From contig NZ_JAUSVS010000004.1 of assembly GCF_030814835.1 (NCBI RefSeq), forward strand, positions 186,001 through 250,000: a stretch of DNA of 64,000 bases, given 5' to 3'. Positions 8,225 to 31,384 of the stretch are shown one piece after another. The notes beneath the pieces were generated by a model. That model ran no database searches, was not told the DNA's origin, and saw only the letters and a list, made by a program, of their open reading frames with translations. A program made the position numbers and the translations under genes. The stretch comes from Caulobacter ginsengisoli (GTDB taxonomy: Bacteria > Pseudomonadota > Alphaproteobacteria > Caulobacterales > Caulobacteraceae). Each line of letters starts with the position of its first letter. Position 1 is the first letter of the stretch.

Positions 8225-8236
8225 TGCGGTGCAACA
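8225..8236 (+). promoter_or_regulatory. PhaR-like box TGCGGTGCAACA upstream of ecm
   Basis: The site has the core TGC-GGT-GCA and matches 11 of 12 positions of TGC-R-N-Y-GCA-S-M-A, the consensus I recall for PhaR/AniA. It lies 28-39 bases before the ecm start, where a promoter or early transcribed region is expected. Its sequence aligns with sites before hbd, mcd and ccr. Confidence 0.5.
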
Positions 8237-8256
8237 TTGCCGCCAAGCCCCCTAAT

Positions 8257-8291
8257 ATCCGCTCATCCCCGCTTTCGCGGGATGAGCGGAT
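8257..8291. terminator. Hairpin (13-bp stem) between the crotonase gene and ecm; REP-like
   Basis: ATCCGCTCATCCC and GGGATGAGCGGAT form a perfect 13-bp stem around the 9-base loop CGCTTTCGC. The hairpin starts 11 bases after the stop of the upstream minus-strand gene and lacks a clear T-run. It could terminate or attenuate, or stabilise mRNA 3' ends. The words GCTCATCCC and CGCTTTCGCGGG recur in the element at 25480-25603, so it is probably a member of a dispersed REP-like family. Confidence 0.6.
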
Positions 8292-8301
8292 TTAACAGGG
8301 T

Positions 8302-9066
8302 CTAACGCCGCCGGAACACCGGCTGCCGCTTCTCGGCGAACGCCGCCAACGCGTTACGATGATCCTCGCTCTCGGCCAGCGTCGCCAGTTCCTCGGCGAC
8401 GATGCTGAGGGCGTCGTCCGGTTCGGTGTCGAGGGCCAGGCTGACGATGCGCTTGGTGGCCTCGACCGACAGCGGGGCGCGGGAGGCGATGCGGCCGGCC
8501 AGGGTCAGGGCGGCCTCCTGCAGGCCCTCGGGCGAGTGGGCGGCGGCGACCAGGCCGAAATTGACGGCCGAGACGGCGTCGAACGGCAGGCCGGTGAGCA
8601 GCATGGTGTTGGCATGGGCCGGGCCGATCAGCCGGGGCAGGCGGTAGGCGCTGGCGATGAGGCCGACATTGACGCCCGAGCAGGTGAAGCTGGCGTTGCT
8701 CGAGGCCAGGCGGATGTCGCAGGCCAGGGCCAGCTCCAGCCCCCCGCCCATGCACCAGCCATTGACGGCGGCGATGACCGGCACGCGCAGGGTCTCGATG
8801 GCTTCGTAGAGGGCGGCGAACTGGTCCAGGCTCTCCAGGGCGCCCTCGCCGCGCTCGGCCGCCTCCTTGAGGTCGTCGCCGGAGCAGAAGGCATTGCCGC
8901 GGCCGGTGATCACCAGCGCCCGGACATCGGTGTCACGCTCGATGGCGTCCAGCTCGGCCAGGAACCGGCGGCGGATGGCCGTGCCCAGGGCATTGGCCGG
9001 TGGCGCGTCGATCTCGATCAGGGCGACGCCGTCGTTGGGGCGGGAGACATGGAGTTCTGCGGTCAT
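8302..9066 (-). CDS. Crotonase-fold (enoyl-CoA hydratase/isomerase family) protein lacking the hydratase glutamates
   Basis: 254 residues. The crotonase signature is present: FCSGDDLKE and AAVNGWCMGGGLELALACDI form the CoA-ester oxyanion hole. The two catalytic glutamates of true enoyl-CoA hydratases are not seen: the usual PE-x-x-x-G segment is CSGVNVGLIASAYRL, and the second position reads GPAHANTMLLTG. It may therefore be an isomerase, decarboxylase or thioesterase-like member rather than a hydratase. It lies between ecm and ccr, divergent from ccr, with a shared PhaR-like site 50 bases upstream. A repair or editing role in the EMC pathway is a hypothesis only. Confidence 0.8.
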   Translation of the reverse strand: MTAELHVSRPNDGVALIEIDAPPANALGTAIRRRFLAELDAIERDTDVRALVITGRGNAFCSGDDLKEAAERGEGALESLDQFAALYEAIETLRVPVIAAVNGWCMGGGLELALACDIRLASSNASFTCSGVNVGLIASAYRLPRLIGPAHANTMLLTGLPFDAVSAVNFGLVAAAHSPEGLQEAALTLAGRIASRAPLSVEATKRIVSLALDTEPDDALSIVAEELATLAESEDHRNALAAFAEKRQPVFRRR

Positions 9067-9115
9067 GGCGGACTCCTCGGCTCAGGCGTCGGCGGCGTCA
9101 AGCTGTCGCGCTTGC

Positions 9116-9127
9116 TGCGCTGCACAA
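9116..9127 (+). promoter_or_regulatory. PhaR-like box TGCGCTGCACAA in the crotonase/ccr divergent promoter region
   Basis: Exact match to TGC-R-N-Y-GCA-S-M-A. It lies 50 bases from the crotonase start on the left and 209 bases from ccr on the right, inside a 270-base divergent intergenic region. The same region has the tandem repeat AATCGACG near 9228-9243 and a second, weaker box next to ccr. Confidence 0.5.
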
Positions 9128-9298
9128 GAATCCGCTTGCCAGTTTCAAACGCTTGTCACACGATCCTGCCCTCACGTCGGGTGATGGCGGGCCCTCAGGG
9201 GCAGGGATTTGCTCGCGCGAGGGGAAAATCGACGAATCGACGGTCAATTCACGCGCGAAAAGACCCAACGAGGCGCGAGCCGGAACAGAGTCCGGCGC

Positions 9299-9310
9299 TG
9301 CCGCATTGCA
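9299..9310 (-). promoter_or_regulatory. PhaR-like box TGCAATGCGGCA immediately upstream of ccr
   Basis: Read on the minus strand, the site matches 11 of 12 consensus positions (GCG for GCA). It sits 27-38 bases before the ccr ATG, the same distance as the sites before ecm and mcd. It is weaker than the distal box at 9116. Confidence 0.4.
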
Positions 9311-9336
9311 ACAGGAACGCCGTCCGGACCCCACCC

Positions 9337-10614
9337 ATGAGCACCGCAACCCTCGACAAGACCCCGGTCAAGGACCTCTACGAGCTGGGCGAAATCCCGC
9401 CCGCCTTCCATGTGCCGAAAAACATGTACGCCTGGACGGTGCGCAAGGAGCGCCACGGCCGGCCGGCGACCGCCATGCAGGTCGAGGTGGTGCCTACCTG
9501 GGACATCGGCGAGGACGAGGTGCTGGTCCTGGTGATGGCCGCCGGGGTCAACTACAACGGCGTCTGGGCGGCGCTGGGCGAGCCGATGAGCGTGCTCGAC
9601 GTCCACAAGCAGCCCTATCACGTGGCCGGCTCCGACGCCTCGGGCATCGTCTGGAAGGTGGGCTCCAAGGTCCGCCGCTGGAAGTGCGGCGACGAGGTGG
9701 TCATCCACTGCAACCAGGATGACGGCGACGACGAGGAGTGCAACGGCGGCGATCCGATGTTCTCGCCCAGCCAGCGCATCTGGGGCTATGAAACCCCGGA
9801 CGGCAGCTTTGCCCAGTTCTGCCGGGTGCAGTCGCGCCAGCTGATGCCGCGGCCCCAGCATCTGACCTGGGAAGAGAGCGCCTGCTATACCCTGACCCTG
9901 GCCACCGCCTATCGCATGCTGTTCGGCCACCAGCCCCATGAGCTGAAGCCCGGCCAGAACGTGCTGGTCTGGGGCGCCTCGGGCGGGCTGGGCGTCTTCG
10001 CCGTGCAGCTGGCAGCCGTCACCGGGGCCAACGCCATCGGCGTGGTCAGCTCGGAGGACAAGGTCGACTATGTGCTGAGCCAGGGCGCCAAGGCGGTGCT
10101 GAACCGCAGCGACTTCAACTGCTGGGGCCAGCTGCCGACCGTCAACGGTCCCGAGTTCGGCGACTACATGAAGGAGACCCGCAAGTTCGGGAAGGCGATC
10201 TGGCAGATCACCGGCAACAAGGACGTCGACCTGGTGTTCGAGCACCCGGGCGAGGCGACCTTCCCGGTGTCGGTCTTCCTGGTCAAGCGGGGCGGGATGG
10301 TGGCCATCTGCGCCGGGACCAGCGGCTACAACCTGACCATGGACGCCCGCTTCCTGTGGATGCGCCAGAAGCGGGTCCAGGGCAGCCACTTCGCCAACCT
10401 GATGCAGGCCTCGGCGGCCAACCAGCTGGTCATCGACCGGCGCATCGACCCCTGCCTGTCGGAGGTCTTCCGCTGGGAGGACATCCCGCTGGCCCACGAG
10501 AAGATGCTGGATAACAAGCACCTGCCCGGGAACATGGGTGTGCTGGTCTGCGCCCAGCGGCCTGGGCTGCGGACCTTCGAGGAAGTGCAGGAGCTGTCGG
10601 GGACGCCCGTCTAG
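9337..10614 (+). CDS. ccr: Crotonyl-CoA carboxylase/reductase
   Basis: 425 residues from MSTATLDKTPVKDLYELGE. The frame is open far upstream, but that is antisense to the crotonase gene; this ATG matches the family N-terminus and length. It is a medium-chain dehydrogenase fold: VAGSDASGIVWKVG, then the nucleotide-binding WGASGGLGVFAVQLA, and the Ccr-specific segment with QRIWGYETPDGSFAQF and QLMPRPQHLTWEE. Ccr reductively carboxylates crotonyl-CoA with NADPH and CO2 to ethylmalonyl-CoA, the committing step of the EMC pathway. It converges with the DUF418 gene (4-base overlap). Two PhaR-like boxes lie upstream. Confidence 0.95.
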   Translation: MSTATLDKTPVKDLYELGEIPPAFHVPKNMYAWTVRKERHGRPATAMQVEVVPTWDIGEDEVLVLVMAAGVNYNGVWAALGEPMSVLDVHKQPYHVAGSDASGIVWKVGSKVRRWKCGDEVVIHCNQDDGDDEECNGGDPMFSPSQRIWGYETPDGSFAQFCRVQSRQLMPRPQHLTWEESACYTLTLATAYRMLFGHQPHELKPGQNVLVWGASGGLGVFAVQLAAVTGANAIGVVSSEDKVDYVLSQGAKAVLNRSDFNCWGQLPTVNGPEFGDYMKETRKFGKAIWQITGNKDVDLVFEHPGEATFPVSVFLVKRGGMVAICAGTSGYNLTMDARFLWMRQKRVQGSHFANLMQASAANQLVIDRRIDPCLSEVFRWEDIPLAHEKMLDNKHLPGNMGVLVCAQRPGLRTFEEVQELSGTPV

Positions 10615-11780
10615 AGCTTGCGGAGGAAGGGTGTCGGCTGGGCGTAGCTGAGCCGCCGCCAGACCCACTCCAGCGGGCCGTAGTGGAAGCGGGCCAGCCA
10701 CAGGGGCGACCAGATCAACTGGGCGGTCCAGACGGCCAGCACGACCAGGGCGACCTGGGCCAGACTGAGCTGGCCGAACAGGCCCAGGCCCCGGCCGCCC
10801 CAGAGCAGCCCGGTCATGATCAGCGACTGGGCGATGTAGTTGCTGAACGCCATCCGCCCGACCTGGCCCAGGGCCCGCATGGCGCGCGGGACCCAGCCGG
10901 CCTTGAGGACCAGGACCACGGCGGACAGATAGCCCAACGCGACCAGGGGGGCGGCGAAGGTGTTGATTACCCAGGCGGCGGTATCCAGGGCGTCGGACCG
11001 GAAGCCGCCAGCCGCCAGCATCAGAGAGGGAATGGCGATGGCGGTCAGAGCCAGGGCGCCGACCGCCAGGCTGGTTCCATAGAAGGCGGTCGAAAGACGG
11101 CCCGCCAGGGCGCCGGTCTTCAGGAGCGCCATGCCGATCATCATCAGGCCCAGGGTAATCCAGCTGTAGAACAGGCCCATCTGCGCCCCGATCCCCAGCC
11201 AGAATTTGAAATTCATGGCCTGGGTGTGGGCGAGCCCGCCATGGAAGGCGGCGAGGCTGTGCGCCAGGGCCTTGGCGGTGACGAACCGCTCGCCGGGCTC
11301 AGCCGGCTCCAGGGCAGTCATGGTGTCGAGGGTCATGGTGAGGAGGCACAGCAAAAGCCCGCCAACCAGCAGCCAGCGCGGTCGCCAGCCCCGCACCAAG
11401 TAGGCCACGGCGCCGCAGATCGCGTACCAGAGCAGGATGTCGCCGTACCAGACAATCGCCCCATGGATCAGGCCGAACACCAGCAGCCAGGCCAGCCGCC
11501 GCCGGGCGATGGCGTTGCGGGCGCGGTCCTGGCCTTCGCCGCCGACCAGCAGCAGCGAGGCCCCGAACAGGGCGCTGAAGATGGTGACGAACTTGCCCTC
11601 GAACAGGATGGTGGTGATCAGCCACCAGGCCTGCGAGAGCGGATCGACGGGTCCCGCCGCGACCGGATTGCCCGCCAGGGAGAAGGGAAAGGCGGTCAGC
11701 AGGATGTTGACGGTCAGGATGCCCAGCACCGCCACCCCGCGGATGACGTCGATCTGGGCGATGCGTTCCGGTTGATTCAT
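10611..11780 (-). CDS. DUF418 domain membrane protein (YeiB-like)
   Basis: 389 residues with about ten transmembrane segments. The N-terminal IAQIDVIRGVAVLGILTVNI is the RGxAxLGI-type signature of DUF418/YeiB proteins. WLLVFGLIHGAIVWYGDILL and the C-terminal SNYIAQSLIMTGLLW and GPLEWVWRRLSY are also family-typical. These inner-membrane proteins are related to acyltransferase-3-like folds; their function is unproven, so a transport or acyl-transfer role is a guess. The MFS gene lies 45 bases upstream on the same strand and may be co-transcribed. Confidence 0.85.
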   Translation of the reverse strand: MNQPERIAQIDVIRGVAVLGILTVNILLTAFPFSLAGNPVAAGPVDPLSQAWWLITTILFEGKFVTIFSALFGASLLLVGGEGQDRARNAIARRRLAWLLVFGLIHGAIVWYGDILLWYAICGAVAYLVRGWRPRWLLVGGLLLCLLTMTLDTMTALEPAEPGERFVTAKALAHSLAAFHGGLAHTQAMNFKFWLGIGAQMGLFYSWITLGLMMIGMALLKTGALAGRLSTAFYGTSLAVGALALTAIAIPSLMLAAGGFRSDALDTAAWVINTFAAPLVALGYLSAVVLVLKAGWVPRAMRALGQVGRMAFSNYIAQSLIMTGLLWGGRGLGLFGQLSLAQVALVVLAVWTAQLIWSPLWLARFHYGPLEWVWRRLSYAQPTPFLRKL

Positions 11781-11825
11781 GCCGCCTCCCGAAAATCAGC
11801 CTTACGCAGTAAGGACGATATTGGA

Positions 11826-13016
11826 TCAGTCTTGCGGCTTGCCGAAGAACGACAGCAGCAGGGCGGCCAGGCCGGCCAACAGGACGATGGGCACGGTCGC
11901 GGCGGTGACCTGGCCGGCGCTGGCGCCTGCGGTCAGCAGCTGGCCCGCCGCCAGCGGTCCCAGGGCCGAACCCAGTCGTCCCGCCGCCACCGCCGCCCCG
12001 ACCCCGCGTCCGCGCACCGGCAGGGCGTAATAGTGGGGGCCGATGCCGTAGAGGCCGAACTGGCCGCCGACCAGCAGACCACCGGCGACGAAGCCCATCA
12101 GGGCGGTGGGGGCCAGGCCCACGGTGGCGCCGGCCAGGGCCTGGATGACGCCGGCCAGGGCCAGGAAGACCACGGTCAGCGGCCAGCGGCCGCCCAGGCG
12201 GTCGATGCTAAGGCCGATGAGCAGCGAGCCGGCCGCGCCGCCCAGGTTGAACAGCATCGACACCAGGGCCGCCTCGTTCTTGTCGAAGCCCCGGGCGATC
12301 AGCAGGGTCGGCAGCCAGTTGAGGAAGAGGTGCAGCACCAGGGCGGTCGCCGTATAGCCGATCCAGAGCAGCAGGGTGGTGGGCAGGCGCTCGGGCGCGA
12401 ACAGCACCTTCAGGGCGTTCTGGCGGGGTGGGTCGGCGGCGGCCGGCTTGACCAGGGTCTCGGGCATCCACCACCACAGGGCAGGCGCGATGGCGATGGG
12501 CGCCAGGCCGCCGACCACGAAGATCATCCGCCAGTCCGCGCCCAGGCTGGAGCGGGCCAGCAGCCCGACCAGGGCCCCGCCCAGCGGCATGCCGGCGGCG
12601 ATCAGGGTGACCATGAAGGTGCGGCGGCTGGCGCTGGCCCGCTCGGCGGCGATGGCGATCAGCATCGGCATGGCCCCGCCCAGGCCCAGGCCCGTCAGCA
12701 CCCTGGCCGCGACCAGCAGCGGGTAGGTCTGGGCCGCCGCCGTCGCCAGCGAGAACAGGCCGAAGATCAGGGTGGCGGCGATCAGAACGGGGCGTCGCCC
12801 CAGCCGGTCGGCCAGCCAGCCGCCCCCGGCCGCCCCGCCCATCAGGCCGAACAGGCTGGCGCTGAACGCCCAGGCCATCTGGGATTTCGAAAGCGCCAGG
12901 GCCTTGGCGAGGCTGGGTCCGGCGACGCCCATCGACTGGATGTCGAAGCCCTCCAGCATCGAGGCCAGCAGGCAGAGGCCGATGACCAGGGCCGGGCTGG
13001 CAGTGGGACGTTGCAT
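11826..13016 (-). CDS. MFS transporter, aromatic acid:H+ symporter (AAHS)-like
   Basis: 396 residues, twelve predicted transmembrane segments. The N-terminal ASMLEGFDIQSMGVAGPSLA carries the G-x-D-x-Q/x motif of TM1 in AAHS transporters. The loop 2-3 motif is GGWLADRLGRRPVL, and AARVLTGLGLGGAMPMLIAI matches TM4 of the same group. The RGxGxG-like loop near VRGRGVGAA is also typical. The family imports aromatic or hydroxylated carboxylic acids with protons. The Rieske oxygenase at 17.8 kb could act on aromatic substrates, but there is no physical linkage. Confidence 0.8.
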   Translation of the reverse strand: MQRPTASPALVIGLCLLASMLEGFDIQSMGVAGPSLAKALALSKSQMAWAFSASLFGLMGGAAGGGWLADRLGRRPVLIAATLIFGLFSLATAAAQTYPLLVAARVLTGLGLGGAMPMLIAIAAERASASRRTFMVTLIAAGMPLGGALVGLLARSSLGADWRMIFVVGGLAPIAIAPALWWWMPETLVKPAAADPPRQNALKVLFAPERLPTTLLLWIGYTATALVLHLFLNWLPTLLIARGFDKNEAALVSMLFNLGGAAGSLLIGLSIDRLGGRWPLTVVFLALAGVIQALAGATVGLAPTALMGFVAGGLLVGGQFGLYGIGPHYYALPVRGRGVGAAVAAGRLGSALGPLAAGQLLTAGASAGQVTAATVPIVLLAGLAALLLSFFGKPQD

Positions 13017-13065
13017 GGCGCTCCCCCGAGGATGCTGGGAGCGAGGCTAGGACGCTTCGCCGCCC

Positions 13066-14172
13066 TCAGGCAAACCGCTTGATCAGCTGCAGCGCCAGGG
13101 TCTGGGTCGCCTTGGCGCCGCCGCCGACGTCGGCGTTGGCGGCGGTGATGACGGCCAGGCCGCGCTTGGGGCCGACCGCGGCGAAGGCGTGCCAGAAGGT
13201 GTTCGAGCCCTCATGGGCCAGGGCCGGACCCTGGGCCCAGGCGCGCTGGGCGAAGGTGATCCAGCCCAGGGCGTAGCTCTGGTCGCCCGGTGTCGGCGGG
13301 GCGGTGAGATGGGCGATGGTCTCGGGCCCCAGCAGCTTGCCGCCGTCGGTGAGGAAGAGGCGGACGAACCTGGCATAGTCGGTCAGCGACATGTGCGCCG
13401 TCCCGGCCGGGCCCAGGGCGGCCGGATTGTCCGAGGGGCCATTGGGGTCGAGCGGATTGAGCATCACGCCCAGATACTGGTGACCCCAGGGCTGAGCCCC
13501 TTTTGGCGCGCCGAAGCCGGCGCTGGTCATGCCGAGCGGGTCGAACAGCTCGGCCTTGATGGTCTCTTCCCAGGAGCGTTGGGCGATGCGCTCGATGGCC
13601 GCCCCGGCGATCATGAAGTTGGCGTTGGCGTAGGCGAACTGGCCGGGAACGCCGCCGGGCCTGGCGGTCAGCGCCCTGGCGGCGAACTCGGCCCGCTGGA
13701 CGGTGAGGGAGCGGGTATCGGCATGAGCGGCCCGCAGCCAGTCGCCATTGACCAGCCCGCCGTCGGAAACCCCGGCCCGGTGGCTCATCAGCGTCTCGAT
13801 GGTCGCCGTGGCGAAGGCCGGGTCCAGCTTCAGGTCGGGGAACAGGCTGGCCAGGGTCGCGCCCCACCGCGCCTTGCCCTGCTCGACCAGCCGGCCATAG
13901 AGGGCGGCGGTCATGGCCTTGGTGTTGGAGCCCAGGTGCCATTTGTCGTCGGTGGTGACGGGATCAGGCTTGCCCTTGCGCCGCACGCCGGCCGCCTCGA
14001 GAAAGGCCAGACCCTCGCGCGTCACCACCGCCCCGGCCAGGGCGGGCGTTCCGGTCTCATCGACAACGCGTTGCAGGCTGCCCTCGGGCGCGTCCGAAGC
14101 CCTGGCGCAGCCGAAGCCGACCAGGCTGGCGGCCGAGGCGGTGAACATCATTCCGCGGCGATGGACTGTCAT
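13066..14172 (-). CDS. Serine hydrolase, beta-lactamase class C/esterase family
   Basis: 368 residues. The N-terminus MTVHRRGMMFTASAASLVGFG looks like a twin-arginine or lipoprotein-type export signal, so the enzyme is probably periplasmic or membrane-attached. The catalytic S-x-x-K is GSNTK (Ser82, Lys85) and the Y-x-N motif is YANAN (Tyr181). LGWITFAQ and a Gly/His-rich segment (PALAHEGSNTFWH) near the C-terminus fill the K-T-G-like position with H-E-G, as in esterase/D-aminopeptidase members. Cleavage of small esters or D-amino acid amides is more likely than beta-lactam resistance. The amylase-like gene starts 41 bases away, divergently. Confidence 0.85.
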   Translation of the reverse strand: MTVHRRGMMFTASAASLVGFGCARASDAPEGSLQRVVDETGTPALAGAVVTREGLAFLEAAGVRRKGKPDPVTTDDKWHLGSNTKAMTAALYGRLVEQGKARWGATLASLFPDLKLDPAFATATIETLMSHRAGVSDGGLVNGDWLRAAHADTRSLTVQRAEFAARALTARPGGVPGQFAYANANFMIAGAAIERIAQRSWEETIKAELFDPLGMTSAGFGAPKGAQPWGHQYLGVMLNPLDPNGPSDNPAALGPAGTAHMSLTDYARFVRLFLTDGGKLLGPETIAHLTAPPTPGDQSYALGWITFAQRAWAQGPALAHEGSNTFWHAFAAVGPKRGLAVITAANADVGGGAKATQTLALQLIKRFA

Positions 14173-14213
14173 CAGGCTGTCTCCCCGACCGAAAAACCGA
14201 CTAGTCTCGCGCC

Positions 14214-15785: not shown

Positions 15786-15819
15786 GTTGCGGCAACGAAA
15801 ACTCGGGGAGGGCGCGGCG

Positions 15820-20923: not shown

Positions 20924-21013
20924 GGGCTCAGCTCCGGTTTCGGCTCCATTGGAGCATGCGCAAATTCCTGCCCGCAAGCTCGCCGATTGTTCGCAGGCGC
21001 GGAATATCTATAC

Positions 21014-21025
21014 TGCGGCGCACCA
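21014..21025 (+). promoter_or_regulatory. PhaR-like box TGCGGCGCACCA upstream of mcd
   Basis: Exact match to TGC-R-N-Y-GCA-S-M-A, 25-36 bases before the mcd ATG. It sits in an AT-richer patch (ATATCTATAC before, ATATTTTC after) that is the likely promoter region, as expected for a repressor site. Confidence 0.5.
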
Positions 21026-21049
21026 TATTTTCGAGGGGAACTTGCGTCC

Positions 21050-22732
21050 ATGACCGCCGTGCTGCCTGATCTCGTGCTGTCTGGCCTGACGACGCTGCTG
21101 CGCGGCGCGGCCGATGGGGCCGGGGCTTTCGTGCACGAGGCGCGCGGGGCGGTCCGGGCCAAGATCACCGTCGGCGGCAAGGTCGACCGGGCCGCCGCCG
21201 ACCGCGAGCAGCAGGCGGTGCATGGCCTGGGCTGGTACGCCTCCTATGCCGAACTGATGAACCAGGTGGCCGGCTGGGCCGAGCGGCTGTCGGCAGAGGG
21301 ATCGTTCGGCGAGACCGAGGCCCTGCTGGCCCAGCTCCTCTTCGCCGAATACGCCGCCCAACTGGTCGGCGGCATCCCGATGAACCTGGGCGAGATCGTC
21401 CGGCCCGCCGACCTGACCGACTCGCGCGAGACGATGAACCGGCTGTTCGCTCCGGCCCTGGTCAGGCTGATGACCGAGGGCGGCGGCCAGGGCGTCAAAA
21501 ACCGCCTGGCGACCCTGCTGGCGTCGGCTCAGGGCCATGCGACGGTCGAGAAGACGGGTCTCGACGAAACCTTCGAGATGATCCGCGACCAGTTCCGCGC
21601 CTTCGCCGACGAGAAGGTGGTGCCGTTCGCCCATGGCTGGCACCTGCGTGACGAGCTGATCCCGATGGAGGTGGTGCAGGCGCTGGGCGAGCTGGGCGTC
21701 TTCGGCCTGACCATCCCGGAAGACTATGACGGGGCCGGCATGGGCAAGACCGCCATGTGCGTGGTCTCCGAGGAGCTGAGCCGGGCCTGGATCGGGGTCG
21801 GCTCGCTGGCCACCCGCTCGGAGATCGCCGCCGAACTGATCCTGACCGGCGGGACCGAGGCGCAGAAGGCCGAATGGCTGCCGCGCATCGCCACCGCCGA
21901 GATCCTGCCGACCGCCGTCTTCACCGAACCCAACACCGGTTCGGACCTGGGCTCGCTGCGCACCCGCGCGGTGCTGAACGGCGACCTCTACAGCGTGACC
22001 GGCAACAAGACCTGGATCACCCATGCGGCCCGGGCCGACGTCATGACCCTGCTGGTCCGCACCGATCCGGCCACCAGCGACTATCGCGGCCTTTCCATGC
22101 TGCTGGCCCCCAAGCTGCGCGGCGACGAGACCCAGCCCTTCCCGACCCCTGGCATGAGCGGCGGGGAGATCGGGGTGATCGGCTATCGCGGCATGAAGGA
22201 GTACGAGATCGGCTTCGACGGCTTCACCGTGCCGGCGGCCAATCTGCTGGGCGGGGTCGAGGGCCAGGGCTTCAAGCAGCTGATGGCCACCTTCGAGAGC
22301 GCCCGCATCCAGACGGCGGCCCGGGCGATCGGGGTGGCGCAGCGCGGACTGGAACTGGGGCTGGCCTACGCGCTCGACCGCAAGCAGTTCGGCCAGGCCA
22401 TCTTCGAATTCCCGCGGGTTTCCAACAAGCTGGTGATGATGGCCGCCGAGATCATGGGCGTGCGCCAGCTGACCTATTTCGCCGCCCGCTCGAAGGACGA
22501 GGGCAAGCGCTGCGACCTGGAGGCCGGCATGGCCAAGCTGGTGGCGGCGCGGGTGGCCTGGGCGGCGGCGGACAACGCGCTGCAGATCCATGGCGGCAAC
22601 GGCTTTGCCATGGAGTACGAGATCAGCCGCGTCCTGGCCGATGCGCGCATCCTCAACATCTTCGAGGGGGCGGGGGAGATCCAGGCCCAGGTGATCGGGC
22701 GGCGGCTGCTGGAAGACGGGCCGAACGCTTGA
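21050..22732 (+). CDS. mcd: (2S)-Methylsuccinyl-CoA dehydrogenase (acyl-CoA dehydrogenase family)
   Basis: 560 residues. A ~160-residue helical extension (VDRAAADREQQAVHGLGWYA and after) precedes a full acyl-CoA dehydrogenase domain. That domain has TIPEDYDGAG, AVFTEPNTGSDLGSLRT, WITHAARAD, the FAD-binding DRKQFGQAIFEFP, and QIHGGNGFAMEYEISR. The long N-terminal extension and overall length are as I know them for methylsuccinyl-CoA dehydrogenase, which oxidises (2S)-methylsuccinyl-CoA to mesaconyl-C1-CoA and passes electrons to ETF. ecm, ccr and etfBA within 15 kb support this over a general acyl-CoA dehydrogenase. Start chosen by RBS GAGGGG and family N-terminus. Confidence 0.88.
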   Translation: MTAVLPDLVLSGLTTLLRGAADGAGAFVHEARGAVRAKITVGGKVDRAAADREQQAVHGLGWYASYAELMNQVAGWAERLSAEGSFGETEALLAQLLFAEYAAQLVGGIPMNLGEIVRPADLTDSRETMNRLFAPALVRLMTEGGGQGVKNRLATLLASAQGHATVEKTGLDETFEMIRDQFRAFADEKVVPFAHGWHLRDELIPMEVVQALGELGVFGLTIPEDYDGAGMGKTAMCVVSEELSRAWIGVGSLATRSEIAAELILTGGTEAQKAEWLPRIATAEILPTAVFTEPNTGSDLGSLRTRAVLNGDLYSVTGNKTWITHAARADVMTLLVRTDPATSDYRGLSMLLAPKLRGDETQPFPTPGMSGGEIGVIGYRGMKEYEIGFDGFTVPAANLLGGVEGQGFKQLMATFESARIQTAARAIGVAQRGLELGLAYALDRKQFGQAIFEFPRVSNKLVMMAAEIMGVRQLTYFAARSKDEGKRCDLEAGMAKLVAARVAWAAADNALQIHGGNGFAMEYEISRVLADARILNIFEGAGEIQAQVIGRRLLEDGPNA

Positions 22733-22755: not shown

Positions 22756-22763
22756 GATGAAGA

Positions 22764-23489: not shown

Positions 23490-23513
23490 CCGGCCCGCCG
23501 GCCGCGCCCGGAC

Positions 23514-24385: not shown

Positions 24386-24689
24386 GCGTGCTCCGTTTCT
24401 GCCTCCCCGCGTCGAATAGGTGTTGAACAGACCCGCGGTGAGGTGTCGATCATGTTCAACGAACTGACTTCATGGAGCCAGGGTCGGGCGCAATACAGGC
24501 TGCGCGAAACTGACGCAAGCGAAAAAATAGGGCAAAAACACGGCTTTTGGAGCAGGATACCGGTAGCATCCACTCATTTCGGGGACCATGCGACAAGACG
24601 TCTCGCCGAACAGATTCGATGAACGCGCTCGTTATGGTGCAGTGCAAACCCATGTGGCGTAAGGGATTGCGGCGGACTAACCTCAGCCG
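24386..24689. other. 304-base divergent intergenic region with inverted repeat and weak PhaR-like box
   Basis: This is the only gene-free gap above 300 bases. It separates the 75-residue/TetR operon (left) from the HIG1/pduO operon (right). GTTGAACA (24422-24429) and TGTTCAAC (24453-24460) are perfect inverted repeats 31 bases apart centre to centre, about three helical turns, a spacing that suits a looping or double-dimer regulator. The middle (AAAAAATAGGGCAAAAACACGG) is AT-rich for this genome. I see no convincing ORF or structured RNA. Confidence 0.5.
24638..24649 (+). promoter_or_regulatory. Weak PhaR-like box TGCAGTGCAAAC upstream of HIG1/pduO
   Basis: The nine-base core TGC-AGT-GCA is intact but the flank deviates (10 of 12 positions). 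It lies 41-52 bases before the HIG1 gene. It is listed because the downstream adenosyltransferase supplies the cofactor of Ecm. Confidence 0.3.
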
Positions 24690-24893
24690 ATGAACCTAAC
24701 GATCAATCTGGCCATAACCGTGGCGCTGGCAGCCGTGGCCACCGTTCTGGCTTTCGGCATCTACGCGCTGTTCAGGGGCGGGGATTTCGGGCGCAGCTGG
24801 TCCAACAAGCTGATGCGGCTGCGTGTAGTGCTGCAGTTCATCGCGATTCTGGTGCTGGTGGCCGCCGCCTGGTGGCGTTCGCAGGTCCACTGA
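24690..24893 (+). CDS. HIG1-domain small twin-transmembrane protein
   Basis: 67 residues with two transmembrane helices (about 5-27 and 46-61) joined by a short loop, GGDFGRSWSNKLMRLRVVLQF. The SNKLMRLRV motif is the hallmark of hypoxia-induced-gene-1 domains; eukaryotic relatives (Rcf1/HIGD) associate with cytochrome oxidase. Bacterial copies are uncharacterised to my knowledge. It precedes pduO by two bases, so they are almost surely co-transcribed. That pairing recalls oxygen- and cobalamin-linked metabolism but does not prove a functional link. Confidence 0.8.
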   Translation: MNLTINLAITVALAAVATVLAFGIYALFRGGDFGRSWSNKLMRLRVVLQFIAILVLVAAAWWRSQVH

Positions 24894-24895
24894 GG

Positions 24896-25474
24896 ATGGT
24901 GACTCTCAACCGCATCTATACCCGCACGGGCGACCAGGGCCTGACCCGGCTGGCCACGGGCGAACCGGTCAGCAAGGCCTCGCTGCGGGTCGAGGCGTAT
25001 GGCGGGGTGGACGAAACCAATGCCTGCCTGGGCGTGGTCCGGCTGCATCTGGCCGCCGATCCCTGGCTGGACGCCGTGATGAGCCGCATCCAGAACGATC
25101 TCTTCGACCTGGGCGCGGACCTGGCCACCCCCGACACGGGCGAGAAGCCGGCCTGGGAGCCGCTGCGCATCCTCCAGGCCCAGGTCGACCGGCTCGAGGC
25201 CGAGATCGACAGAATGAACGCCGAGCTTTCCGCCCTGACCTCGTTCGTGCTGCCGGCCGGATCGCCGGCGGCGGCGTATCTGCACGTCGCCCGCACGGTC
25301 TGCCGGCGGGCCGAGCGGGCCTGCGTGGCCCTGGCGGCGGCAGAGGGGGAGGTGGTCAGCCCCGAGGCGGTGAAATACCTCAACCGCCTGTCCGACCTGC
25401 TGTTCGTCGCCGCCCGCTGGACCAACGACAAGGGCGGCGCCGACGTCCTGTGGACGCCGGGGGCCAACCGCTAG
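24896..25474 (+). CDS. pduO: ATP:cob(I)alamin adenosyltransferase, PduO type
   Basis: 192 residues from MVTLNRIYTRTGDQGLTRL. The ATP-binding TRTGDQG motif lies at residues 9-15. Further family marks are VEAYGGVDETNACLG, FVLPAGSPAAAYLHVARTVCRRAER with the conserved Arg, and YLNRLSDLLFVAAR. The enzyme adenosylates corrinoid to coenzyme B12. In this window Ecm is the visible consumer, making a supply role plausible. The start ATG lies two bases after the HIG1 stop (TGAGGATG, with GAGG as part of the ribosome-binding site). Confidence 0.92.
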   Translation: MVTLNRIYTRTGDQGLTRLATGEPVSKASLRVEAYGGVDETNACLGVVRLHLAADPWLDAVMSRIQNDLFDLGADLATPDTGEKPAWEPLRILQAQVDRLEAEIDRMNAELSALTSFVLPAGSPAAAYLHVARTVCRRAERACVALAAAEGEVVSPEAVKYLNRLSDLLFVAARWTNDKGGADVLWTPGANR

Positions 25475-25479
25475 CTACC

Positions 25480-25603: not shown

Positions 25604-25614
25604 TATTAAGAGAG

Positions 25615-25971: not shown

Positions 25972-26055
25972 GGGCCGCCCTCTACCTCACGCTTCCCCAG
26001 AGGGAAACTTGCAATGCTGGCTCAAGCCTGTATTGCCCTGACTCCGCATACTTTT

Positions 26056-26067
26056 CGCAACGCACAA
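26056..26067 (+). promoter_or_regulatory. PhaR-like box CGCAACGCACAA upstream of etfB
   Basis: It matches 11 of 12 positions of TGC-R-N-Y-GCA-S-M-A (C for the first T) and lies 18-29 bases before the etfB ATG. Position and sequence align with the boxes before mcd and ecm. Confidence 0.4.
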
Positions 26068-26084
26068 TAGGGCGGTAAACACCC

Positions 26085-26834
26085 ATGAAGCTGCTTGTCC
26101 CGGTCAAGCGGGTGATCGATTCCAACGTCAAGGCGCGGGTTAAGCCCGACCAGACGGGCGTCGACCTCGCCAACGTCAAGATGGCGATGAACCCCTTCTG
26201 CGAGATCGCCGTCGAGGAAGCCGTCCGCCTCAAGGAGAAGGGCGTCGCCACCGAGGTGGTGCTGGTCTCCATCGGCCCGCAACAGGCCCAAGAAACTATA
26301 CGAACTGGCCTGGCCATGGGCGGCGACCGCGGCATCCTGATCGTTTCCGACACCGACCCCGAGCCCCTGGCCGTCGCCAAGCTGCTCAAGGCGGTGGTCG
26401 ATGAGGAAAAGCCCGACCTGGTGCTGATGGGCAAGCAGGCCATCGACGGCGACAACAACGCCGTCGGCCAGATGCTCTCGGCCCTGCTGGACTGGCCCCA
26501 GGCCACCTTCGCCTCCAAGGTCGAGATCTCCGGCGGCAAGGCCGCGGTGATCCGCGAAGTGGACGGCGGCCTGCAGACCGTGGAAGTGCAGCTGCCGGCG
26601 GTGATCACCGCCGACCTGCGCCTCAACGAGCCGCGCTACGCCTCGCTGCCGAACATCATGAAGGCCAAGAAGAAGGAAATCGCGATGAAGACGGTCGCCG
26701 ATTACGGCGTCGACGTCGCGCCTCGCCTGAAGGTCCTCAAGGTCGCCGAGCCGGCCAAGCGCTCGGCCGGGGTCAAGCTGGAAACCGCCGCCGATCTGGT
26801 TGGCAAGCTGAAGAACGAAGCGGGGGTTATCTGA
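26085..26834 (+). CDS. etfB: Electron transfer flavoprotein, beta subunit
   Basis: 249 residues. [12 protein letters not shown] is the typical EtfB start. [18 protein letters not shown] is the signature region, [19 protein letters not shown] the AMP-binding segment, and [16 protein letters not shown] carries the 'recognition loop' that docks to acyl-CoA dehydrogenases. With EtfA it collects electrons from dehydrogenases such as Mcd and passes them to ETF-ubiquinone oxidoreductase, which is not in this window. The stop TGA overlaps the etfA ATG by one base, indicating coupled synthesis. Confidence 0.96.
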
Positions 26835-27778
26835 TGGCCGTTCTCGTCGTCGCCGATAACGACAACGCGCACCTGCGCGATTCCACCAACAAGACCGTGA
26901 CGGCCGCCCTGGCCGTTTCGTCCGACGTCGATGTCCTGGTCATGGGCCAGGGCGCCAAGGCCGTCGCCGACGCCGCCGCCAAGATCGAGGGCGTGCGCAA
27001 GGTGCTGCTGGCCGAGAGCGCCGACCTCGGCCACGCCGTCGCCGAAGCCCAGGCCGCCACCGTGGTGGGCCTGATGGGCGGCTATGACGCCGTGCTGGTC
27101 CCGGCCACTGCCGGCGGCAAGAACTTCGCCCCGCGGGTCGCCGCCAAGCTGGACGTGGCCATCATCTCCGACGTGCTGGCCATCGTCTCGGCCGACACCT
27201 TCACCCGGCCCATCTATGCCGGCAACGCGCTGGAGACGGTGCAGTCCTCCGACGCCAAGAAGGTGCTGACCGTCCGCGCCACCGCCTTCAAGGCGGCCGG
27301 CGAAGGCGGCTCGGCCAGCGTCGAATCGGCCTCGGCCGGCGCCGACGCGGCCAAGACCAAGTTCGTCTCCGAAGAGATGGTCAAGTCGGACCGTCCGGAA
27401 CTGACCGCCGCCAAGATCGTGGTGTCGGGCGGCCGGGCTATGGGTTCGGCCGAAGAGTTCCACAAGGTGATCGAGCCCCTGGCCGACAAGCTGGGCGCCG
27501 CCGTGGGCGCCAGCCGCGCCGCCGTCGACGCCGGCTATGCGCCCAACGACTACCAGGTCGGCCAGACCGGCAAGGTCGTGGCCCCTGAGCTCTACATCGC
27601 CATCGGCATCTCGGGCGCCATCCAGCACCTGGCCGGCATGAAGGACTCCAAGGTCATCGTGGCGATCAACAAGGACGCCGACGCGCCGATCTTCCAGGTC
27701 GCCGATTATGGCCTGGTGGCGGATTACAAGAACGCCGTGCCTGAGCTGATGGACGCGCTCACCGCGATCGGAAAGTAG
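26834..27778 (+). CDS. etfA: Electron transfer flavoprotein, alpha subunit
   Basis: 314 residues. The N-terminal domain is followed by the FAD-binding C-terminal half with [55 protein letters not shown] and [16 protein letters not shown]. All the expected FAD contacts (Arg, Ser, Gln, His) are visible. It pairs with etfB to the left, overlapping it by one base. A stem-loop follows 13 bases after the stop. Confidence 0.96.
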
Positions 27779-27783
27779 ACAGC

Positions 27784-27817
27784 AAAAAAGCCGGGAGGCC
27801 GGTTTCCCGACCTCCCG
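27784..27817 (-). terminator. Rho-independent terminator (canonical on the minus strand)
   Basis: CGGGAGG (27792-27798) pairs with CCTCCCG (27811-27817), extended inward by three pairs past one mismatch. Read on the minus strand, the stem is followed at once by CTTTTTT (complement of the A6 run at 27784-27789), so it terminates the gene ending at 27842. Read on the plus strand it may also slow transcription after etfA, but without a T-run. Confidence 0.75.
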
Positions 27818-27841
27818 CAGTGCTCGGAGCTTTGAAGAGAT

Positions 27842-28207
27842 CTAGCGGCCGTCGGTCTTCGCACCGGCGGCCGCGATCGTTTGCGGCTCGCCCAGCCTGA
27901 AGGTCACCTTGCGACCCAGCAGTTCGTCGGGCGGGCTGGCGAATTTCAGGCCCTTGAGGGCGGCCCCGGCCGCGGCCTGGTCGTCGCGGTTGCCGCCGGT
28001 CAGCTGCAGGGCGTAGCCGCGCGGGTCGGTCGACACCTTGATCTGCACGGCGACGGGGTCGGTCAGGCCGGCGGCGGTCAGCCGGGCCTGGATCTGGCCG
28101 CGGGCCCCGGCCAGCCATTGGTCGGCGGCGGGCGAGGCGTTGGCTTGTGAGAGACTGACGACGGCGGCGAGCGCCGTCGCCGCCAGGAGAAGCGGGCGGA
28201 AGGTCAT
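27842..28207 (-). CDS. Small secreted hypothetical protein
   Basis: 121 residues. A signal peptide is clear (LLLAATALAAVVSLSQANA, cleavage likely after ANA-S). The mature part of about 97 residues has LTDPVAVQIKVSTDPRGYAL and ALKGLKFASPPDELLGRKVTF, weakly like the C-terminal domain of TonB-type proteins (an 'x-P-P-x-L' turn then a beta strand). I would not assign function. It is followed by a canonical terminator at 27817-27784, so it is a single-gene unit; a LysR gene diverges from it. Confidence 0.65.
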   Translation of the reverse strand: MTFRPLLLAATALAAVVSLSQANASPAADQWLAGARGQIQARLTAAGLTDPVAVQIKVSTDPRGYALQLTGGNRDDQAAAGAALKGLKFASPPDELLGRKVTFRLGEPQTIAAAGAKTDGR

Positions 28208-28327
28208 GGTCGGGGTCTTTCGGTGTGAGGGAGGAAGCGGCGCCGTGAGGAGACAGATGCGCGCTCCGACCTCGAATTACGAACGATAGCTTTTGCAGGT
28301 GCTTGTGAGTCCGGCTAACATCTCACA

Positions 28328-29215
28328 ATGAGCCGGCTGCCGCCCTTCATCGCCCTGCGCGCCCTCGAGGCGGCGGCCCGCCATCAGAGCTACAGCCGCG
28401 CCGCCGACGAGCTGGCGGTGACCCATGGCGCGGTCAGCCAGCAGATCCGCCGGCTGGAGGAGGAACTGGGGACCACCCTGTTCGTGCGGCAGGGCAACGG
28501 CATGGTCCCCACCGCCTCGGCCCTGACCCTGGCCGGGGAGGTGTCACAGGCTCTGGCGACCCTCAGGCGCGGGGTCGAGGCGGTGCGGGAGCAGTGCAGC
28601 GGACCGCTGGTGCTCTCCACCGTGCCGGCCTTCGCCACCCGCTGGCTGGCCCCCAAGCTGGGCCGGCTGACCGCCGAGATCGACGAGACCGAACTCTTGC
28701 TGCGGGTCGAGATGCGGATGGCCGACTTCGTCACCGATGGGGTCGACGCCGGCCTGCGTCACGGCGAGGGAAACTGGCCGGGCCTGGAGGTGGCGCCGCT
28801 GTTCATGGACCGGCTGTTCGCGGTGGCGACGCCCGACTTCCTGGCCAGACACCCGATGACCTCGCCCGCCGACCTGGCCGGCGCCCCGCTGCTGCACCAC
28901 ACCATCTGGCCCTGGCGGCTGTGGTTTGAGCGAATGGGACTGGATCAGGCGCCGCCGGCCCGGGGGCTGGTGTTCGAGGACTCGGCCATGCTGCTGGACG
29001 CCGCCGTGCAGGGCATGGGCGTGGCCCTGGCCCGCAGCGGGCTGGTGGGTGAGGATCTGCGTTCAGGCCGCCTGGTGCGGCTGTTCGCCGACGAGCTCTG
29101 CGCCGACATGGGTTATTTCCTGGTCTGGCGCAGCGATAGTCCCAAGCTCGCCCGCATCCACCGCCTGCGCGACTGGCTGCTCGCCGAGGCGGCGCGGGAG
29201 GCGGACGGGGTCTGA
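28328..29215 (+). CDS. LysR family transcriptional regulator (GcvA-like)
   Basis: 295 residues. The winged-helix domain reads LRALEAAARHQSYSRAADEL and VTHGAVSQQIRRLEEELGT. The effector domain is type-2 periplasmic-binding-like with LSTVPAFATRWLAPKLGRL, LLRVEMRMADFVTDGVDAGL and the GcvA-subtype feature VDAGLRHGEG. Its gene order suggests it could control the neighbouring secreted protein, divergent with a 120-base gap. The last 153 bases overlap antisense with the C-terminal extension of the next gene. Ligand unknown. Confidence 0.88.
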   Translation: MSRLPPFIALRALEAAARHQSYSRAADELAVTHGAVSQQIRRLEEELGTTLFVRQGNGMVPTASALTLAGEVSQALATLRRGVEAVREQCSGPLVLSTVPAFATRWLAPKLGRLTAEIDETELLLRVEMRMADFVTDGVDAGLRHGEGNWPGLEVAPLFMDRLFAVATPDFLARHPMTSPADLAGAPLLHHTIWPWRLWFERMGLDQAPPARGLVFEDSAMLLDAAVQGMGVALARSGLVGEDLRSGRLVRLFADELCADMGYFLVWRSDSPKLARIHRLRDWLLAEAAREADGV

Positions 29216-30622
29216 GCTCCGGAAGACGTCCTCCAGTCGGGGCTGTTCGAAGACGAAGCCCAGCTCGGAAAGCCGGCGCGGCAAAACCCGCTGGCTGGCC
29301 AGGAACAGGTCGGCCATCTCGCCCATCGGTAGGCGCAGGGCCAAGGCCGGGGCGGCCAGGAAGCGGGGCCGCTTCAGCCAGCGGGCCAGGCGGTCGGCGA
29401 AGGCCTTCTGGGTGACCAGGTCCGGGGCCACGGCGTTGACCGGCCCCCGCCAGCGCGGGTCGTCCAGGGCCGCCAGCACGATGCGGATCGCGTCATGGCG
29501 GCCGATCCAGGGCGTCCACTGCCGCCCCGTTCCCATCACCATGCCCAGCCCGAACCGGAACGGCAGGCCCATCAGCGGCAGCGGGCCGCCGCGCCAGTCG
29601 AACACCATGCCGAGCCTGAGCAGACAGACCCGGATGTTCAGTTCCGAGGCCTTCACCGCCTCGGCCTCCCAGCGCCAGCACAGTTCGCTCATGAAGCCGC
29701 GCGAGGGGCCGCTGGCCTCGCTGAGCCCTTCCTCGGCGCGGTCGCCATAGTAGCCGGTGGCCGAGGCGCTGATCAGCACGGCGGGCTTGCGCTCAAGCCG
29801 CTCGGCCAGGGCCAGCAAGGCGCGGGTGACGTTGAGGCGGCTGCCCAGCAGGGTCTCGCGCCGCCCCCTGGTCCAGAGGCCGCCGATGACCGGCGCCCCC
29901 GCCAGGTTCACCAACGCATCGATGCGGGTCTCGGCCGGGAGATGATCGAGGCTCTCCAGCACCAGCACCCGCTCGCCGAACCGGGCCCGGGCCGACAGCC
30001 CGTCCCTGGTCAGGGCCATCACCCGCCAGCCGGCCGCCAGCAGGGCGTCGATCAGGGCCGGGCCCAGGAAGCCGGTGGCGCCGGTGATCAGGACGGTGCG
30101 GCCGTTGGGCGCCGCCGGCGGCGCGGCGGCTGGACTTTTCGCGCGGGCGGCCAGGGTGTCCCGCACGGCCCAGACCAGCACGCCAGCGCCCATGGCTGTC
30201 ATCGCCCAGGAGCCGAGGCCGTGGTTCTGCAAAGCCAGCCCGGTCGGCAATTGACCCCAGGCGGCCAGCACCGGCGCCAGCACAGCCAGCACCGCGCCGA
30301 ACACCAGGGCCATGACGGTGTGCAGCACCCGCTCGCTGGGCGGCAGGCGGCGGGTTCGGTCCTCCAGCAGGAAGTCCTTCAGGGTGATGACCACCTCGAC
30401 GGCCATGATCGCCGCCAGGATCAGGGCCCAGACGCCCTGGAAGGCCAGCCAGGCCAGGCCAAGATAGACCAGGCCATAAATCCATTCGCGGGCGCCATGC
30501 AGCGCCAGTTCCGCCCGGGCCTGCGGTTTGCCCGGCAGGCCGGCCGCCAGTTCGTGATGGGCGAAGGTGTCGTAGGCGCCCAGCAGGCCCTGCAGCAGCA
30601 TCAGGACGATGACGGCGGTCAT
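29063..30622 (-). CDS. Membrane-fused TIGR01777 epimerase/SDR protein
   Basis: 519 residues in two parts. Residues 1-160 hold four transmembrane segments with conserved-looking polar residues inside or next to them (AYDTFAHHEL, HGAREWIYG, LLEDRTRRLPPSERVLHTVM). From about 170 a TIGR01777 (SDR39U1-like) domain follows: VLITGATGFLGPALIDALL, LVNLAGAPV, ISASATGYYGD, LCWRWEAEA and LLRLGMVF. The family end lies near FVFEQPRLEDVF, after which about 50 residues continue as antisense of LysR up to the stop at 29063. The start ATG (30620-30622) directly follows the DUF4166 gene. Function unknown; NAD(P)-dependent activity is implied by the Rossmann motif. Confidence 0.8.
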   Translation of the reverse strand: MTAVIVLMLLQGLLGAYDTFAHHELAAGLPGKPQARAELALHGAREWIYGLVYLGLAWLAFQGVWALILAAIMAVEVVITLKDFLLEDRTRRLPPSERVLHTVMALVFGAVLAVLAPVLAAWGQLPTGLALQNHGLGSWAMTAMGAGVLVWAVRDTLAARAKSPAAAPPAAPNGRTVLITGATGFLGPALIDALLAAGWRVMALTRDGLSARARFGERVLVLESLDHLPAETRIDALVNLAGAPVIGGLWTRGRRETLLGSRLNVTRALLALAERLERKPAVLISASATGYYGDRAEEGLSEASGPSRGFMSELCWRWEAEAVKASELNIRVCLLRLGMVFDWRGGPLPLMGLPFRFGLGMVMGTGRQWTPWIGRHDAIRIVLAALDDPRWRGPVNAVAPDLVTQKAFADRLARWLKRPRFLAAPALALRLPMGEMADLFLASQRVLPRRLSELGFVFEQPRLEDVFRSSDPVRLPRRLGEQPVAQAVDAGELGTIAAPDQEITHVGAELVGEQPHQAA

Positions 30623-31279
30623 TTAAAGCACTCCCTCCGGCGGGTCCCGGAACAGGCCGTCCTGGAACAGGGTCTCGCCGAACAGCGGGTGGGTGAAGAT
30701 CAGGGTGAAGCGGAAGGTCCCGCCGCCCATATCGGTATGGATGACATGCGCCCGGCCCGGGCTGGTCAGCAGGGGCAGGGGGAGACGGATGGGACCGAGC
30801 GTGGCGAAATAGGCCAGGCTGCGGAAATGCAGGGCGCGGTCCTCGACCGTGACGGCCAGGGTCATGCCAAGGCCCCCGCGCACCACCTCCATCAGGGCGC
30901 CGCTGGGGCTCATCAGCTTGGCGGAGGAGACCATGACCGGCCGGTGGCCGGCGAAATCGTAGGTGCGGTCCCAGGCCAGGCCGCCGCGTTGGTCCAGATG
31001 TACGTCCACCCGCACCGGCACGTCCGCGCCGCGCCAGGGGGCCAGCGGGGTGCCGATCAGCCGGCAGACCTGGGCGAACAGCCAGCCGACCGGGTTGGCC
31101 CGCACGACCATCTCGCCGCTGTAGACCACAACGCGGTGATGGCTGGCGGTTCCGAACCTGGCCTGCACGGCCGTCGGCAGGTCGTTCCAGGCTCTACCGA
31201 GGAGTCGGGCGAAATCGGGAGTCGTTGCGTGCCTGGGCCTTGCCGGGGTCCAGGGTGGGGCCAGATCCAGAAAAGCCAT
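30623..31279 (-). CDS. DUF4166 domain protein
   Basis: 218 residues, one domain. The family pattern runs from FARLLGRAWNDLPTAVQARFG through VVVYSGEMVVRANPVGWLFA and VRVDVHLDQRGGLAWDRTY to GRAHVIHTDMGGGTFRFTL. DUF4166 has no known activity; it often occurs next to or fused with TIGR01777-like or saccharopine-dehydrogenase-like proteins, and does so here. Its last base abuts the start of the TIGR01777 gene, so they are one unit. A strong 22-bp palindrome lies 29-50 bases before its start. Confidence 0.85.
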   Translation of the reverse strand: MAFLDLAPPWTPARPRHATTPDFARLLGRAWNDLPTAVQARFGTASHHRVVVYSGEMVVRANPVGWLFAQVCRLIGTPLAPWRGADVPVRVDVHLDQRGGLAWDRTYDFAGHRPVMVSSAKLMSPSGALMEVVRGGLGMTLAVTVEDRALHFRSLAYFATLGPIRLPLPLLTSPGRAHVIHTDMGGGTFRFTLIFTHPLFGETLFQDGLFRDPPEGVL

Positions 31280-31307
31280 CGCCGCGCTCCTCGCAGGCTA
31301 TTTCTTA

Positions 31308-31329
31308 TATTTCTGTTATTACAGAAATA
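31308..31329. promoter_or_regulatory. 22-bp AT-rich palindrome (probable operator) before DUF4166
   Basis: TATTTCTGT and ACAGAAATA are perfect 9-bp arms around the spacer TATT. It stands out as nearly free of GC in a GC-rich genome. It lies 29-50 bases upstream of the DUF4166 gene and about 150 bases upstream of hbd. The regulator is unknown; a dimeric helix-turn-helix protein is implied. Confidence 0.6.
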
Positions 31330-31372
31330 GCAGCAATGCTTCGCTGTCGCAAGAGAGTCACACCTTGTTCGT

Positions 31373-31384
31373 TGCGGTGCAGCA
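31373..31384 (+). promoter_or_regulatory. PhaR-like box TGCGGTGCAGCA upstream of hbd
   Basis: Exact match to TGC-R-N-Y-GCA-S-M-A. It lies 98-109 bases before the hbd ATG and is extended to a symmetrical TTGC-N6-GCAA. hbd acts in (poly)hydroxybutyrate and C4 metabolism, the classical PhaR context. Confidence 0.5.

Follow-up and report, generated by a model that had tools for sequence, protein, structure and literature searches.

In many Alphaproteobacteria the ethylmalonyl-coenzyme A (CoA) pathway takes the place of the glyoxylate cycle. In a stretch of 64,000 nucleotides (nt) of the Caulobacter ginsengisoli genome, referred to here as the window (bases 186001-250000 of contig 4; 69% GC; genome of 4.81 Mb), genes for the upper half of this pathway lie scattered, which raises the question of what might coordinate them. 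Control of this half seems mostly open: two ScfR regulators have been excluded in Paracoccus (PMC10370305), and CcrR has been described for Methylobacterium. A first-pass annotation of the window had noticed TGC-N3-GCA words in front of the pathway genes and compared them with a pattern for rhizobial PhaR/AniA. Here we argue that these words probably mark operators of PhaR (AniA), a regulator that binds polyhydroxybutyrate (PHB), and that such operators would unite the upper ethylmalonyl-CoA pathway with the PHB genes.

Predicted PhaR-type sites in the window

All seven words described in the first-pass annotation are present at their places, and the pattern used there is the PhaR consensus of Bradyrhizobium diazoefficiens, TGCRNYGCASMA (PMC6201568). 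An exact fit had been claimed for three words, which is an undercount: on both strands of the window TGCRNYGCASMA matches exactly at five places, or six times when strands are counted separately (8222 on the minus strand, 9113 minus and 9116 plus, 21014 plus, 24635 minus, 31373 plus). The number expected is 0.78, and none of 100 shuffles reached six. When one mismatch was allowed, 23 matches were found against 21.7 expected, and the loose 12-mer alone therefore carries no signal.

To avoid circularity with the earlier choice of sites, the window was scanned with an external matrix, symmetrised and 21 nt long, derived from 24 Sinorhizobium meliloti PhaR sites in promoters that were positive in electrophoretic mobility shift assays (EMSA; Table 3 of PMC12542648). 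The earlier inspection had been confined to promoter regions; this unbiased scan of the whole window recovered the same sites, since its eight top positions comprise the seven reported ones and one at 35453 that had been missed. By rank they lie at 24632 (21.6 bits), 26050 (19.5), 9110 (18.9), 21008 (18.6), 8219 (18.6), 31367 (16.1), 35453 (15.8) and 9296 (11.5), and the ninth position scores only 9.1 bits. Twenty first-order Markov sequences of the same length served as the chance control; their first three ranks averaged 12.6, 10.3 and 9.4 bits, and the single highest score was 18.3 bits. One site of such strength is possible by chance, seven are not. All eight top positions are non-coding according to our own codon-usage gene caller, which assigns 89.4% of the window to genes. 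The caller missed a GcvA-like LysR regulator gene at 28328-29215, between etfA and hbd, so the intergenic labels of sites carry some error. A shorter matrix covering the 13-nt core was rejected for its weaker separation, with the mcd site only 19th and 35453 18th.

The predicted operators stand in front of the following genes, with distances counted from site centre to start codon unless the word edge is named. The first (8219..8239, minus strand) is centred 32 nt from ecm (6209..8197, minus strand), which encodes a probable ethylmalonyl-CoA mutase of 662 residues with methylmalonyl-CoA mutase-family domains. A distal operator (9110..9130) occupies the gap between a gene for a crotonase or enoyl-CoA hydratase of 254 residues (8302..9066, minus strand; enoyl-CoA hydratase models match below their cut-offs), from which it is 54 nt away, and ccr, from which it is 217 nt away. 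The gene ccr (9337..10614, plus strand) encodes crotonyl-CoA carboxylase/reductase (TIGR01751, 655 bits, over the cut-off) and has its own weaker proximal palindrome (9296..9316) at 31 nt. The mcd operator (21008..21028, plus strand) lies 32 nt before a gene (21050..22732, plus strand) for a probable methylsuccinyl-CoA dehydrogenase of 560 residues, assigned from its acyl-CoA dehydrogenase family, long N-terminus and neighbourhood. Both ecm and mcd match superfamily models only, ecm being named from its neighbourhood and mcd from neighbourhood and length.

The window's best site (24632..24652) lies 48 nt before a pair of plus-strand genes for a HIG1-domain protein (24690..24893; PF04588, HIG_1_N) and a pduO-type cob(I)alamin adenosyltransferase (24896..25474; TIGR00636 over its cut-off, PF01923). 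The next (26050..26070, plus strand) is 25 nt from etfB, which together with etfA (26085..27778, plus strand) matches models of the electron transfer flavoprotein (ETF). The hbd operator (31367..31387, plus strand) is 105 nt from its gene for 3-hydroxybutyryl-CoA dehydrogenase (31482..32357, plus strand; NF005715 equivalog, 522 bits, over the cut-off). The additional site (35453..35473, plus strand) lies 29 nt before the first gene of a probable operon (35492..37720, plus strand) encoding a HAD hydrolase, a MaoC/enoyl-CoA hydratase-like protein and the flavin adenine dinucleotide (FAD) synthase RibF (TIGR01459, PF01575, TIGR00083).

Distances are thus 25-54 nt for ecm, crotonase, ccr (proximal), mcd, HIG1 and etfB, and six of the nine measured fall at 25-48 nt. 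The first-pass annotation had put most sites 18-39 bases before the start, measured from the word edge. This is true of ecm, the proximal ccr word, mcd and etfB (four of seven) and not of crotonase (about 47), HIG1 (about 41) or hbd (about 98).

PhaR and further sites in the genome

The PhaR homologue that the first-pass annotation had presupposed is encoded in the genome as one full-length copy (TIGR01848 equivalog, 156 bits against a cut-off of 109) with both Pfam domains, PHB_acc_N and PHB_acc. The gene phaR is divergent from phaA and phaB, and the phaR/phaA gap holds a 13.0-bit site 41 nt before phaR.

Outside the window, sites were enumerated via two patterns, TGCRNYGCASMA and the palindrome TKNYGCRNYGCRNMA, and sites matching neither may exist. 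The genome contains 83 exact matches to TGCRNYGCASMA compared with 10 to the reversed pattern, and 39 places with TKNYGCRNYGCRNMA compared with 14; taken together these matches give 101 separate centres, of which 39 are intergenic and 62 intragenic. A count of hits inside and outside genes, proposed with the first-pass annotation, gave different answers for the two detectors. The bare 12-mer occupies 77 places, 32 intergenic and 45 intragenic, and was rejected as a genome-wide detector because most of its exact matches are intragenic. The 21-nt matrix, at a threshold of at least 15 bits, marks 27 intergenic sites and a single intragenic one. Seven of these 27 strong intergenic sites lie in the window, which makes up 1.3% of the genome (0.36 expected; P about 5e-8, calculated post hoc).

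Enrichment before PHB genes had also been predicted. It is borne out for the phasin gene, which has two sites, and for phaZ, with a site at 29 nt, but not for phaC, mch or two lyase candidates, whose scores are given below. A strong site also lies 35 nt before the gene for 3-hydroxybutyrate dehydrogenase (bdh), and the mmgR/suhB small RNA (sRNA) gene (RF00519, 55.2 bits) has two strong sites and a weak one (7.5 bits) 36-144 nt upstream (L121:1510-1618 and 1654-1727), which suggests that the link between AniA and mmgR extends past the rhizobia. Others precede a ferredoxin-NADP reductase-like gene (88 nt) and a gene for a large NAD-type glutamate dehydrogenase (321 nt). Another site, of 23.3 bits (L163:1504; G000:C5:208233), is placed 111 nt ahead of a gene for a pntA-type transhydrogenase, an enzyme that could supply NADPH for Ccr. 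Further strong sites precede genes without an evident link, among them those for a NarK-type transporter, a cell-wall hydrolase, a Ham1-type protein, GreA/EamA and a putative DMT-type transporter.

Conservation of the sites among Alphaproteobacteria

Conservation was assessed in 80 named loci found through Ccr, each gene being represented by its highest matrix score between -250 and +20 relative to the start. The window Ccr is 87-91% identical to those of the seven best-matching loci, all from Caulobacter. Scores of at least 15 bits were obtained before 61/80 ccr, 42/61 ecm, 12/32 mcd and 3/9 etfB genes, compared with 9/923 other genes called in these loci; at least 12 bits were reached by 68/80 ccr genes and 18/923 of the others. 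One site may count for both genes of a divergent ccr-ecm pair, and the 923 control genes still contain some from the pathway: hbd (L076:19579) is among their nine high scorers. A sample drawn evenly from the class, partly overlapping the named loci, comprised 385 genomes, of which 119 have Ccr, and yielded 111 ccr upstream regions, our own included. Here 73/111 scored at least 15 bits and 86/111 at least 12 bits, the latter spread over 40 of 49 families.

These regions bear directly on the view that GC-rich DNA yields such words by chance and that a look at promoters alone brought them out. It draws on the one-mismatch 12-mer count, close to expectation, on the 45 of 77 exact genome places that fall inside genes, and on the one chance sequence in 20 that reached 18.3 bits. 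The unbiased window scan gave the same sites, however, and their conservation across species exceeds every control: with 60 column-permuted matrices at most 1/111 ccr upstream regions reached 15 bits, with ten rounds of Markov shuffles 0-2/111 did so, and among distant Ccr paralogues 0/10 scored at least 15 bits and 1/10 at least 12 bits. Chance as a general explanation is thus highly improbable, and for ccr, ecm and hbd it is already refuted. A chance origin of the 35453 site is still possible; about 1% of control upstream regions reach 15 bits. The ten paralogues themselves, Ccr-like proteins of 50-53% identity, look like another Ccr-type family of the Alphaproteobacteria; none has a strong site, and the one above 12 bits scores 13.9.

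Within the crotonase-ccr gap the distal site forms an island of conservation, scoring 14.9-19.5 bits in six aligned relatives. The proximal palindrome is partly conserved (10.1-14.7 bits at 22-34 nt in L032-L038; 17.8 bits in L039) and is absent or weak in L040-L042. Beside the distal operator, a second block at 9133-9160 (CGCTTGCCA...TTGTCACA) is likewise conserved in our sequence and those of six relatives; a terminator-like stem (9133-9151) overlaps it in part, and the block could be the promoter or another operator. Sites of at least 15 bits precede mcd in 12/30 Caulobacterales, our own included. In 20 stretches from relatives hbd could be located 11 times, and nine of these 11 genes have a site of at least 14 bits 82-109 nt upstream. 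A 17.9-bit site was also seen in a relative at L407:511. Conservation, which the first-pass annotation had made a test of its proposal, is accordingly strong for ccr, ecm, hbd and, in Caulobacter loci, crotonase, and partial for mcd; it is nearly absent for etfB and likewise for HIG1-pduO and HAD-maoC-ribF.

We also compared the ccr site with the presence of PhaR, which was sought in 80 of the 111 sampled genomes (all low and middle scorers and 42 of the 73 high scorers). A ccr site of at least 12 bits was found in 53 of 70 genomes with PhaR and in two of ten without detected PhaR (Fisher p = 0.001, uncorrected for descent). The other eight of these ten, which lack the site too, are small genomes (0.9-1.4 Mb) from three families (f10, f25 and f131), and four of them are less than 90% complete. 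PhaR was also sought in 50 of the genomes with named loci and turned up in 49.

A putative PhaR regulon and its relation to known systems

From the sequence, position and conservation of the sites, and from their co-occurrence with PHB genes, we infer that PhaR binds them. For the core genes of the pathway, assignment to a PhaR regulon appears well supported; support is weaker for the cofactor genes as a conserved part of it. PhaR control of the upper pathway is probably old and general in Alphaproteobacteria, with a conserved core of ccr, ecm and hbd to which cofactor genes (adenosylcobalamin, ETF, FAD, NADPH) would have been added lineage by lineage.

Several results weigh against this reading or narrow it. 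A simple scan of the mcd and ecm-ccr regions found no sigma-70-like promoter near or overlapping the sites. The bare 12-mer is, as noted, commoner inside genes than outside. No strong site was found in the 14 kb scanned around mch (best score 9.0 bits), within about 1.5 kb on each side of two HpcH/HpaI lyase candidates (2.9 and 1.3 bits) or near phaC (7.7 bits). Distal enzymes, checked through mch and the lyase candidates and without a search for methylmalonyl-CoA mutase, epimerase and propionyl-CoA carboxylase, were accordingly rejected as regulon members. Sites of at least 12 bits precede etfB in only 3/29 Caulobacteraceae (our own and two relatives that also have mcd) and HIG1-pduO in 2/20, our own included; the HAD-maoC-ribF site was found in 1/30, that of our own genome. 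On these grounds we rejected the idea that a general cofactor regulon is ancestral. The single circuit envisaged in the first-pass annotation therefore holds in its core, while its cofactor-adenosylation and ETF branches are confined to this species and a few near relatives. In one proteome condition of Rhodospirillum rubrum, PhaR fell (0.44-fold) and Ccr did not rise (0.64-fold, not significant) (PMC7109303).

The distribution of PhaR has its own exceptions: 17 of the 70 sampled genomes with PhaR lack the ccr site, and both sampled genomes with a site and no detected PhaR are incomplete assemblies (68 and 80%). A 22.2-bit site precedes ccr in L078, a metagenome-assembled genome and the only named one without detected PhaR, which may reflect an incomplete assembly or another regulator. 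All five Methylocystis-type loci (L061, L066, L068, L070 and L074), which are among the 12 named ccr loci below 12 bits, have PhaR in the genome and no ccr site, so PhaR without a ccr site does exist. These 17 genomes, and the three with a site and no detected PhaR, would fit another regulator recognising a similar TGC-N3-GCA word, for instance the TetR-type CcrR, which activates ccr in Methylobacterium extorquens (Hu and Lidstrom 2012, as cited in PMC4207312). The matrix, however, was built on EMSA-positive PhaR promoters, and its hits in this genome include phasin, phaZ and mmgR; eight of the ten sampled Ccr genomes without detected PhaR are also without the site, and we consider operators of another regulator unlikely.

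The sign of the control is a further point on which readings differ. That PhaR acts as a repressor is suggested by most sites lying 25-54 nt before start codons. It might instead bind and activate the pathway when PHB is absent, in which case PHB formation would shut acetyl-CoA assimilation off. Many motif-bearing genes of Bradyrhizobium are PhaR-activated, which counts against simple repression, and its Table 3 lists 42 such genes that fall in the phaR mutant, including pdhA and pckA (PMC6201568); the distal ccr site and the hbd site also lie further upstream than the others. Against activation stand the six of nine distances at 25-48 nt and the co-targets phaP and phaZ, which PhaR represses in both S. 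meliloti and Bradyrhizobium. We regard activation as possible but doubtful, though less so than control by another regulator.

Under repression by PhaR, a single regulator would tie hbd, crotonase, ccr, ecm and mcd to phasin, PHB depolymerase, 3-hydroxybutyrate dehydrogenase and the mmgR sRNA. PhaR of S. meliloti binds both PHB and its DNA sites, its targets include phasin, phaZ and mmgR, and PHB removes it from the phasin and depolymerase promoters (PMC12542648). By analogy, free PhaR at or near the promoters would repress; when acetyl-CoA overflows into PHB, granules would withdraw PhaR from solution and free the operators. The derepressed cell would then make granule coat, depolymerase and the pathway leading from acetyl-CoA and 3-hydroxybutyryl-CoA to C4 acids, so that production of the C2-to-C4 pathway would coincide with an abundance or a store of C2 units. 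Such a scheme would suit growth both on acetate and on PHB, because PHB can be spent for growth only via a C2-assimilation pathway. The regulon of this species may also have gained helper genes for adenosylcobalamin supply and ETF, and possibly for FAD synthase and transhydrogenase.

If this is true, the carbon store PHB may itself induce the pathway by which acetate units become cell material. The coordination of scattered genes would then follow from a granule-bound repressor that governs PHB storage and PHB spending alike. It bears on engineering too, as an M. extorquens phaR mutant made for more product unexpectedly gave no more (PMC6520949). The proposal is testable in genetically tractable relatives.

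Among known systems, CcrR of M. extorquens is likewise a regulator of ccr, but a TetR-type activator that is not known as a PHB sensor. RamB and PccR, of the ScfR family in Paracoccus and Rhodobacter, resemble the proposed PhaR circuit as regulators of acetyl-CoA and propionyl-CoA assimilation and differ in having been assigned to the glyoxylate cycle (RamB) and the methylmalonyl-CoA pathway (PccR); deletion of the two other ScfR genes in P. denitrificans left growth and pathway expression patterns unchanged (PMC10370305). No publication was found that names PhaR as a regulator of the ethylmalonyl-CoA pathway, in a search to which subscription papers and supplements were mostly closed, so an earlier mention is possible. 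Such control is also unmentioned in the available parts of PMC6520949, PMC10370305, PMC12632250, PMC4207312, PMC7109303 and PMC12542648.

The closest parallels are the rhizobial PhaR regulons. In B. diazoefficiens the consensus TGCRNYGCASMA comes from footprints and promoter alignment, and phasins and phaZ are repressed (PMC6201568, PMC10888616); the words 'crotonyl' and 'methylmalonyl' are absent from the main text of PMC6201568, and these and 'ethylmalonyl' from the available text of PMC10888616. The main text on S. meliloti (PMC12542648) likewise does not contain ethylmalonyl, methylmalonyl, etfB or bhbA. The S. meliloti PhaR/AniA regulon shares with the one proposed here the same palindrome (YGCRNYGCR with AT-rich arms), a pair of sites for each phasin gene (phaP1 and phaP2), and the targets mmgR and PHB depolymerase; there, too, no site was found before phbC, and phaR shares an intergenic region with phbAB (PMC12542648). 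It differs in its carbon targets, which include gltA, ppdK, zwf and exopolysaccharide genes, and in the response of an isocitrate-lyase-like protein (PMC12542648). Set beside these systems, the predicted operators of the upper ethylmalonyl-CoA pathway would form a new and apparently widespread branch of the known PhaR regulon.

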